Source of the DNA: Brevibacillus ruminantium | Lineage (GTDB): Bacteria; Bacillota; Bacilli; Brevibacillales; Brevibacillaceae | DNA: 64,000 nt | Assembly: GCF_023746555.1 (NCBI RefSeq) | Contig: NZ_CP098755.1 | Coordinates: forward strand, 4,906,001-4,970,000 | Reading direction: 5' to 3' | In this document: positions 27,385 through 60,264 of the stretch, piece after piece | Position numbering within the stretch: the first letter of the stretch is position 1 | Layout of the letters: every line of letters begins with the position of its first letter | The notes under the pieces: model-generated | What the model was told of the DNA's origin: nothing | Databases searched by the model: none | What the model saw: the letters and a program-made list of their open reading frames with translations, nothing else | Program-made: the position numbers and the translations under genes

Positions 27385-28007
27385 GAGTTATCACCATCCG
27401 CCGTTACCTTTACATCACGGAAACGAAGACGAATGTATTCAACCAAGATCAGATATTCTTCTGCATACTTGCTATCGCTATGTCTCGTCTTTACTTTCTG
27501 TTCGAATTCATCAATAGTTCCGAAGCAGCAACCCCGCGTCACTTCAATTTCTCCAGTCTTAGAAGTGAAAGCAGTTAATGTCCCGTTTTCTGACCCAACG
27601 TTACTAAACCATACGATGTGCCGACTTGATTCCACCCGAGCATCGCCGTACACCCGAGCATCGCCGTACACCCAAGCATCGCCGGACACCCGAGCATCGC
27701 CGTACACCCAAGCATCGCCGTACACCCGAGCATCGCCGTACACCCGAGCATCGCCGGACACCCAAGCATTGCCGTACACCCGAGCATCGCCGGACACCCA
27801 AGCATCGCCGGACACCCAAGCATTGCCGTACACCCGAGCATCGCCGGACACCCAAGCATTGCCGGACTGATCAAGGTTTTCCTCCTTTGCGATCCAGCCG
27901 CCAAGTTCTCCTTCCCCGACGTCACCAAACGAACGAACAGCTTTTATTTGGTAAAGCGTGATACCGAAAAACTCGATTGTATTTTCAGTCAGGACATATT
28001 TTTTCAT
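27381..28007 (-). CDS. Phage protein with six-residue beta-helix repeats
   Basis: 208 aa. Residues about 50-125 are a run of 6-residue units A-W/R-V-S/Y-G-D/N, coded by an 18-bp DNA repeat. This hexapeptide pattern should form a left-handed or triangular beta-helix. The N-terminus (YVLTENTIEFFGITLYQIKA) and C-terminus are non-repetitive and match each other in other phage proteins of this kind. Function is unknown; such proteins may be structural or bind partners. The number of repeats is likely variable. Confidence 0.6.
   Translation of the reverse strand: MKKYVLTENTIEFFGITLYQIKAVRSFGDVGEGELGGWIAKEENLDQSGNAWVSGDARVYGNAWVSGDAWVSGDARVYGNAWVSGDARVYGDARVYGDAWVYGDARVSGDAWVYGDARVYGDARVESSRHIVWFSNVGSENGTLTAFTSKTGEIEVTRGCCFGTIDEFEQKVKTRHSDSKYAEEYLILVEYIRLRFRDVKVTADGDNS
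27634..27870. repeat. 18-bp tandem repeats within the beta-helix gene
   Basis: About thirteen adjacent 18-bp units with the core AGCATCGCCGTACACCC or close variants (plus strand). Units alternate at one or two positions in a way that changes Trp/Arg and Tyr/Ser. There are no unique spacers, so this is a coding repeat and not CRISPR. Confidence 0.8.
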
Positions 28008-59118: not shown

Positions 59119-59471
59119 CTGCGTTCGCCCCCTCTCATGCAGTCAATTGCCCGCGGCATTCTCACTTTTACTTATTTTCATTATATTCTCCTTCTCTTGC
59201 AATTTTCCTGCCAATATCTGAATGCTTGCGGATTAGAAAAAGCGTGGAAACTGTTCCGTTTCCAATGGCTCTTTGTCAGAAATAACGTACATATTGACCA
59301 GCGCCATTCGCCACTTGGCCACCCGTCTTCTCCAGTTGCTAAGGCCAATGCTGTTGCATTGCACTCACGTCCCCCTTCAAAATTCAAACAGGTAATTCCA
59401 ATTCCCGGCCTGGTTGATTTTACGTTTGCAACTCATGTTCATTTCTCTTATAATTGAATTTGTCACATCTT
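59119..59471. promoter_or_regulatory. rpoN / tRNA-Arg intergenic region with tRNA promoter
   Basis: TTGCAA (59426-59431), 17 nt, TATAAT (59449-59454), 18 nt before the tRNA: a strong tRNA promoter. A minus-strand TATAAT at about 59186 may belong to rpoN. Otherwise nothing recognisable in 353 nt. Confidence 0.7.
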
Positions 59472-59546
59472 GCGCCCGTAGCTCAGTGGATAGAGCAGCG
59501 GTCTCCGGAACCGCGTGCGGAGGTTCGACTCCTCTCGGGCGTACCA
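59472..59546 (+). tRNA. tRNA-Arg (CCG)
   Basis: 75 nt with encoded CCA. Acceptor GCGCCCG / CGGGCGT (first pair G-U), D-arm with AGCTCAGTGGATAGAGC, anticodon loop CTCCGGA (anticodon CCG), T-arm GGAGG-TTCGACT-CCTCT type. The 3' end is repeated twice downstream in the tandem units. Confidence 0.9.
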
Positions 59547-60018
59547 TATCATGACGAAACGATCGGTTAACACCGATTGTTTTTTTATGCTCAAAAGCTA
59601 CTGGAGTCGAACTTTTCCCGAAGGGAAAACCTGTTCGACGGCCGGTCCATGCGCAGCAGGGAGCGGCCTGTCCCGGCCCTTAGCTCGCCTTCCTGCTTCC
59701 CGTGTTTTCCTACTTTTAGGCGAGCTTGGGGCCGGGGCTCCTCTCGGGCGTACCATATCATGCGAAACGATCGGTTAACACCGGTCGTTTTTTTATGCTC
59801 AAAAGCCACATGGAGTCGAACTTTTCCCGAAGGGAAAACCTGTTCGACGGCTGTTCCATGCGCAGCAGGGAGCGGCCTGTCCCGGCCCTTAGCTCGCCTT
59901 CCTGCTTCCCGTTTTCTTCCCGCTTTTAGGCGAGCTTGGGGCCGGGACTCCTCTCGGGCGTACCATATCATGACGAAACGATCGGTTAAAACCGGTTGTT
60001 TTTTTATGCGCAAGAGCC
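59529..60018 (+). repeat. Tandem ~210-bp units, each with a tRNA-Arg 3' end and strong hairpins
   Basis: CTCCTCTCGGGCGTACCA (tRNA 3' end) occurs at 59529, 59738 and 59948, i.e. periods of 209 and 210 bp. After each copy follow ATATCATG, then an ATCGGT-taac-ACCGAT type terminator with seven T. Units 1 and 2 continue with a double hairpin (GTCGAAC...GTTCGAC around TTTTCCC-GAA-GGGAAAA) and a long hairpin (GCTCGCC/GGCGAGC plus CCCGGCCC/GGGCCGGG). Unit 3 stops after its terminator. Several ORFs here are by-products. Confidence 0.8.
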
Positions 60019-60023
60019 ACGAA

Positions 60024-60057
60024 AACCTCCGTTCATCTGCAACGGAGGTTTGTTTTT
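60024..60057 (+). terminator. Strong terminator after the repeat block
   Basis: AACCTCCGTT (60024-60033) pairs with AACGGAGGTT (60041-60050), then TTGTTTTT. Confidence 0.8.
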
Positions 60058-60125: not shown

Positions 60126-60263
60126 ATGGATATGACCAAGATGAGCACAAAAGAGTTCGTCGAAAAAGTTCACGAAGCTCAGGCCCATGCTCGGGAGAAC
60201 AAGGAGCACAGCGGATACGGCCATCCGGAAAAACGTCTCCCCAGCAAGCAGGGCATCCGCTAA
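60126..60263 (+). CDS. DUF4023-like small protein, 45 aa
   Basis: ATG behind GGGAGGTG. Charged, Lys/His/Glu-rich: STKEFVEKVHEAQAHARENK and a GYGHPEKRLPSKQG end, the style of tiny DUF4023 proteins in spore-formers. Function unknown; possibly sporulation-linked by analogy only. Confidence 0.5.
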   Translation: MDMTKMSTKEFVEKVHEAQAHARENKEHSGYGHPEKRLPSKQGIR

Positions 60264-60264
60264 A

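Follow-up and report, generated by a model that had tools for sequence, protein, structure and literature searches.

A tandem array of structured repeats behind tRNA-Arg(CCG) of Brevibacillus ruminantium, with related units behind other tRNA genes of the family

The array at the tRNA-Arg(CCG) locus

Near one end of the window, i.e., the whole stretch of 64,000 nucleotides of the Brevibacillus ruminantium genome analysed here, lies a gene for tRNA-Arg(CCG) that is identified by ARAGORN and by Rfam (RF00005, 63.7 bits) and has its CCA encoded. Its neighbourhood consists of rpoN and of genes for a glutaredoxin-like protein, a small DUF4023 protein, and a periplasmic binding protein, and no integrase-type gene is recognised among these neighbours. 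The small DUF4023 gene (60127-60264) follows right after the array described below and is syntenic in the relative G011. At a separate place in the window (27633-27864), Tandem Repeats Finder reports an 18-bp tandem repeat, CACCCGAGCATCGCCGTA, in 12.9 copies.

Directly behind the tRNA, Tandem Repeats Finder detects one array (59527-60020; period 209, 2.4 copies, 93% matches, score 881). Its units of 209 and 210 bp are 94% identical, are arranged head to tail, and differ from each other by 1-nt indels. As originally predicted, the 18-mer CTCCTCTCGGGCGTACCA, which forms the 3' end of the native tRNA-Arg at 59529-59546, recurs without any change at 59738-59755 and 59948-59965, and 18 exact bases found twice more within 450 bp exclude chance as the origin of these tail copies. 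Within each unit, terminator T1 is followed by hairpins A, M, and B and then by a tRNA 3' end, and the array closes with a tRNA end and T1, followed by a terminator T2 that is not repeated. The features are as follows, all on the + strand.

59426..59454, +, predicted sigma-70-type promoter of the tRNA gene, TTGCAA-17-TATAAT (consensus match only, 10/12)
59472..59546, +, tRNA-Arg(CCG), adjoining rpoN (sigma-54; Pfam); ARAGORN, Rfam
59529..59546, +, native tRNA 3' end CTCCTCTCGGGCGTACCA: T-loop end, T-stem 3' strand, acceptor 3' strand, and CCA
59556..59583, +, predicted terminator T1a, directly 3' of the tRNA (-18.0 kcal/mol)
59606..59639, +, unit 1 hairpin A, GTCGAAC..GTTCGAC with inner TTTTCCC-GAA-GGGAAAA; outer stem invariant in the array-bearing relative G037
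59640..59668, +, unit 1 hairpin M (from the fold)
59670..59738, +, unit 1 hairpin B, 21-bp stem with one U.U mismatch (arms 59670-59690 / 59718-59738)
59738..59755, +, copy 1 of the tRNA 3' end, 18/18 identical
59764..59791, +, predicted terminator T1b
59815..59848, +, unit 2 hairpin A (from the fold)
59849..59877, +, unit 2 hairpin M (from the fold)
59879..59948, +, unit 2 hairpin B (arms 59879-59899 / 59928-59948)
59948..59965, +, copy 2 of the tRNA 3' end, 18/18 identical
59975..60002, +, predicted terminator T1c, end of the array (homology to ~60020)
60023..60051, +, predicted terminator T2, outside the repeat; a T2-like terminator stands behind the same tRNA in the array-free G011

The promoter search of the region yielded 3 promoter-like sites, compared to 0.5 expected. 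In agreement with the original prediction, the units are noncoding, since 1-nt indels separate them and the period is 209/210; the frame-shifting indels rule out a coding sequence as a reading of the repeat.

When folded, units 1 and 2 are far more stable than shuffled sequences (z of -7.3 and -7.9, with 0/200 shuffles as good). In the window units, a GGA preceding hairpin A pairs with the TCC of the copied T-stem strand and thereby closes the three hairpins, and GGAGTCGAAC on the 5' side of unit 1 hairpin A is the reverse complement of the tRNA T-arm. It had been noted earlier that the terminator stems change between units yet remain paired. The pairing is indeed complete, as CGATCGGT forms 8/8 pairs with each of ACCGATTG, ACCGGTCG, and ACCGGTTG, but the left arm is constant, and the stems differ only by one-sided changes that create or remove a G.U pair. 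Such changes indicate compatibility with the stem and not covariation, and the window alone carries no covariation. The two further long stems claimed for each unit correspond to hairpins A and B, from which hairpin M now has to be separated as a third stem; the two units hardly differ in the arms of A and B, and a comparison within the window therefore gives no test of these stems. Among non-Watson-Crick pairs in the Arg-type helices, read on the tRNA-sense strand, there are 10 G.U (about 7 of them independent, as several are shared by descent) and 0 A.C, which points to RNA of the tRNA-sense strand rather than to folded DNA. An Rfam search of the array matched no family besides tRNA, and a search with RtT (RF00391) gave no match even at E<=5. 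The motif GGA is not enriched in the Arg units (11 occurrences vs 10.9 in shuffled sequence).

Occurrence of Arg-type units and conservation of their fold

In its own genome the Arg unit was found at one locus only, with no dispersed copies, and none was found in 25 other genomes of the genus. The syntenic site of G011 is free of an array and consists of the tRNA, a T2-like terminator, and the DUF4023 gene. A search of the wider family (39 genomes) revealed one further carrier, G037, which belongs to a different genus and harbours its array at the orthologous rpoN-linked tRNA-Arg. This array comprises at least two full units plus a last tRNA end and T1 and contains a sequencing gap. Tail copies downstream of tRNA-Arg(CCG) are thus present at 2/39 loci of the family, those of the window genome and of G037. 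The copies in G037 reproduce the tRNA end of that genome, and this end and the tail in the window differ at two positions. Beyond the family, no Arg-type unit was detected by DNA similarity in 399 Bacilli genomes, in a search of low sensitivity, as the G037 query missed even the diverged units of the window. An origin from a plasmid, a phage, or a viral contig was considered and found no match, as the phage and plasmid collections contain no similar DNA and one 27-mer had no exact match in viral contigs.

Comparison of the window with G037 shows no change in the outer stem of hairpin A, while T1 and hairpin M have been rebuilt. In hairpin B the arms are identical at only 9/20 positions; nevertheless, in this comparison of just two lineages, 10/20 pairs are double-compensated, 2 are changed on one side, and 7 are unchanged. 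The U.U mismatch occupies the identical position in both; 9 pairs, the mismatch, and a lower stem are kept across genera, and 0/20000 shuffled right arms pair equally well. The compensatory changes in hairpin B argue for selection on the fold. The proposal of a structured RNA linked to the tRNA is therefore borne out, and the homologue at an orthologous locus, together with compensatory change between genera, is the opposite of the lack of homologues and covariation that the original prediction had named as speaking against it.

Units of the same layout behind tRNA-Asp, -Gly, and -Val

A search behind other tRNA genes had been suggested at the outset, and it turned up units of like kind within the family. 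The genome has 107 tRNA genes, and a scan of them revealed more tails at two loci of tRNA-Asp(GTC), at +149, and at one of tRNA-Gly(GCC), at +146, and a search of the family with the Asp unit extended these to 15 genomes from 5 genera. There are 29 distinct units behind tRNA-Asp, -Gly, or -Val, measuring 135-159 nt from the CCA of the tRNA to the CCA of the copy. The body is common to them, and the tail is always that of the host tRNA: compared with the last 20 nt of the host tRNA, 573/580 positions are identical and 23/29 tails are without mismatch. Both the Arg type and the Asp/Gly/Val type can be written as one common formula, tRNA - P - [B - tRNA 3' end - P]n, with P standing for the post-tRNA sequence and B for the structured body (in the window, terminator T1 and hairpins A, M, and B, respectively). 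In 6/29 units the repeat extends 6-30 nt past the CCA into post-tRNA sequence, as compared to 0.9% of control pairings, a run of at least 6 nt being scored as recognisable. The duplication thus once took in post-tRNA DNA, and this DNA, unlike the tail, has decayed in the meantime; exact tails amid decayed surroundings indicate that the copy of the tRNA end is maintained.

Operons next to the loci with Asp/Gly/Val units hold remnants and empty spacers. Five spacers behind tRNA-Asp, -Gly, and -Val (L062, L066, L070, L076, and L102) contain only the first part of the unit, the post-tRNA hairpin, and are decayed or partly deleted units. At L088 (G035:C1:568135-568328) a second, partial unit lies directly after the tRNA-Asp tail copy, a remnant of an Asp-type tandem. 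For tRNA-Gly, genes with a CCCTTC tail (L086, L091, L093, L095, L104, and L105) carry a unit in 0/6 cases and genes with a CCCGTC tail in 10/17, a comparison uncontrolled for relatedness.

A covariance model was built for the 3' part of the sister units (module 2). It includes a stem that shows compensatory changes, and a search of 399 Bacilli genomes with the model yielded members in this family only. Column covariation in the Asp/Gly/Val units is dominated by the split between isotypes, and only stem c is clear. The Val units carry a segment able to pair with the tail. When whole units were swapped to test each body against the tRNA ends, its own end ranked ~5th of 16 on average, with no clear co-adaptation; restricted to module 2, the test gave p=0.07. 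Permutation of the antisense segment in module 1 favoured the own isotype, though sequences of the same isotype share ancestry and the Gly mean is distorted by one deleted segment. Taken together, the evidence for co-adaptation between the Asp/Gly/Val bodies and the tRNA tails they carry is weak. These units show no enrichment of GGA (72 vs 76.1 shuffled).

The module-2 core also occurs apart from tRNA genes, in repeats of 66-70 bp that are single or tandem (up to 7) and have the core GATCTGGC..TTCGACGCAG..GCGCCAGTAGGAAG. Arrays of this core stand directly upstream of the Shine-Dalgarno sequence or start of secA, whiA, DUF444, ribonucleotide reductase, and GntR genes, at loci that include the following.

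G000:C1:3412582-3412847, REP-like core repeat (L140)
G000:C1:4384336-4384461, REP-like core repeat (L141)
G000:C1:5054753-5054812, REP-like core repeat (L139)
Further loci with REP-like core repeats: L142, L144, L145, L146, L147, L148, L151

Their stem has three double-compensated pairs, and GGA is enriched in the arrays (32 vs 20.1, sd 3.3), with TCC occurring 1 time. Many dispersed copies thus exist of the Asp/Gly/Val core but not of the Arg unit, which is confined to one locus. The location of the core arrays upstream of protein genes indicates that the Asp/Gly/Val body was recruited from a REP-like repeat or was the source of it.

Interpretation and relation to known tRNA-linked repeats

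The array is real, structured, and tRNA-linked, and it represents a variant of a known but unexplained kind of element in a Gram-positive family. It has one layout with its sister units behind other tRNAs, exact tails, a fold conserved across genera, and patchy occupancy. We consider it probable, if far from assured, that it is an array of tRNA-linked repeats (TLRs) in which read-through of T1 from the tRNA promoter gives rise to structured RNAs, with the tRNA-like 3' end being retained because it allows 3' processing of the tRNA type. RNA polymerase would start at the predicted tRNA promoter and sometimes read through T1, yielding one or two further structured RNAs. As each of these would end in the 3' strands of T-stem and acceptor plus CCA, its 3' end might be trimmed or protected like that of a tRNA. 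Copy number presumably shifts by recombination between the direct repeats, and selection for processing, gene conversion, or both may keep the copied end identical to the tRNA. Since predicted T1a resembles a strong terminator, read-through may be infrequent. Further points against this reading are the patchy occupancy (2/39 tRNA-Arg(CCG) loci), the weak co-adaptation of the Asp/Gly/Val bodies with their tails, and the count of Arg-type compensations, which comes from two lineages only. Because the bodies were not seen to be tuned to their own tails in the swap test, a tRNA-like minihelix is not claimed as established.

It is unlikely, though still to be reckoned with, that the units are a non-autonomous mobile cassette, i.e., a circle of ~210 bp (B - tRNA end - P) that would integrate site-specifically at the tRNA 3' end, restore the tRNA, and leave a copy behind, with repeated integration producing the array. 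The layout is as from Campbell-type integration, the copies start in the T-loop, which is a usual attachment zone in tRNA genes, occupancy is patchy between paralogous operons as well as between genomes, and G011 offers an array-free syntenic site. However, such a cassette leaves one without an integrase-type gene beside the array or similar DNA in phage and plasmid collections (and without an exact match of the 27-mer in viral contigs), and the genome carries the Arg unit at this locus alone. Moreover, the strong compensatory change and the excess of G.U over A.C point to selection on RNA, and the copies stay identical to the tRNA although the displaced end of an attachment site is free to decay.

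Plain tandem duplication with no function, in which slippage or unequal crossing-over would act on a tRNA spacer rich in hairpins, would account for changes and losses in copy number and fits units that are 94% identical, head to tail, and offset by 1-nt indels. It is nonetheless quite improbable, already weakened by compensatory changes between genera that it does not explain, and it explains neither the exact tRNA ends beside decayed flanks in Asp/Gly/Val units nor the recurrence of one layout behind tRNAs for Arg, Asp, Gly, and Val and behind tRNA-Tyr of E. coli. It is very improbable that a palindromic, REP-like element transposed beside the tRNAs, leaving the tRNA end as target duplication, since target duplications of at least 20 nt are unusual and the Arg body has neither dispersed copies nor a linked transposase, even though the module-2 core forms 66-70-bp tandem arrays upstream of secA, whiA, and other protein genes, and E. 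coli rtT resembles BIMEs.

The preferred reading, that of a TLR array, places the locus beside known elements, and the original statement that no named repeat family explains it does not hold: the anatomy is that of the E. coli TLRs (PMC8144298), as checked on the K-12 tyrT/tyrV locus, where we find a 19-nt tRNA-Tyr tail, a spacing of 178 bp, and four RtT matches of >130 bits. TLRs were first described in 1978 and have no established function, a role in the stringent response having been withdrawn; E. coli has 22 units at ten loci, and each unit repeats exactly, over 18-19 bp at its own 3' end, the end of the tRNA or rRNA gene that precedes it (PMC8144298). According to the definition given there, the array in the window starts inside the tRNA-Arg gene, its tails are identical at 18/18 positions twice (with 20-nt copies in 29 sister units), and its 2.4 units fall within one to five per locus; for transcription and processing, which the definition also names, the window offers a predicted promoter and predicted terminators. 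Like the E. coli TLRs, it lies head to tail behind a tRNA in 1-5 copies, with tRNA-tail ends, a structured body, and repetition of the post-tRNA sequence, and both, including E. coli rtT itself, carry a segment able to pair with the copied end. In contrast, the body is unrelated in sequence to RtT (RF00391), none of the Brevibacillaceae loci scores above gathering for RtT, the hosts are Firmicutes and not Enterobacteria, the tRNAs are Arg, Asp, Gly, and Val and not Tyr, and the Arg units hold a terminator inside each unit.

Other systems share some of these traits. Junctions of the attL/attR type, which had been suggested for the array, also place a copy of a tRNA 3' end downstream of an intact tRNA, but here the body measures only ~190 bp, no integrase is recognised, the copies are exact, and an RNA fold is conserved. 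REP/BIME repeats, to which rtT-like elements of E. coli have been linked (PMC2965389), resemble the dispersed 66-70-bp tandem arrays of the Asp/Gly/Val core, whereas the Arg units are locus-specific and much longer. The E. coli RNAs rrA, rrB, and rrF lie behind 5S rRNA between dual terminators T1 and T2, are processed products of T1 read-through, bind Hfq and CsrA, and carry GGA motifs (PMC8144298). The window array likewise lies between T1 and T2 and carries a copy of the 3' end of the upstream RNA, but the Brevibacillaceae TLR units are without GGA enrichment, though the genome has csrA. A CsrA sponge, as for rrA/rrB/rrF, is accordingly unsupported.

In the open-access literature searched, TLRs are placed in Enterobacteria, with RtT-type sRNAs reported from Pasteurellaceae too (PMC4986893), and no report of tRNA-linked repeats in Gram-positives was found there. 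The TLR layout in Brevibacillaceae, with unrelated bodies and behind tRNAs for Arg, Asp, Gly, and Val, provides the comparison that has so far been missing. Tentatively, and with more doubt than for the array itself, TLRs might be a means to produce small RNAs with a tRNA end, evolved separately in Gram-positives and Gram-negatives, in which unrelated bodies, one of them derived from a REP-like repeat, gain a host tail from T-loop to CCA that is kept identical as a tag for processing or stability. The copied end was proposed as a processing signal by the authors of the TLR study (PMC8144298), and exact tails beside decayed flanks make this idea directly testable. What is common to the elements of both groups is an exact tRNA tail on a structured RNA, and this is likely what matters.
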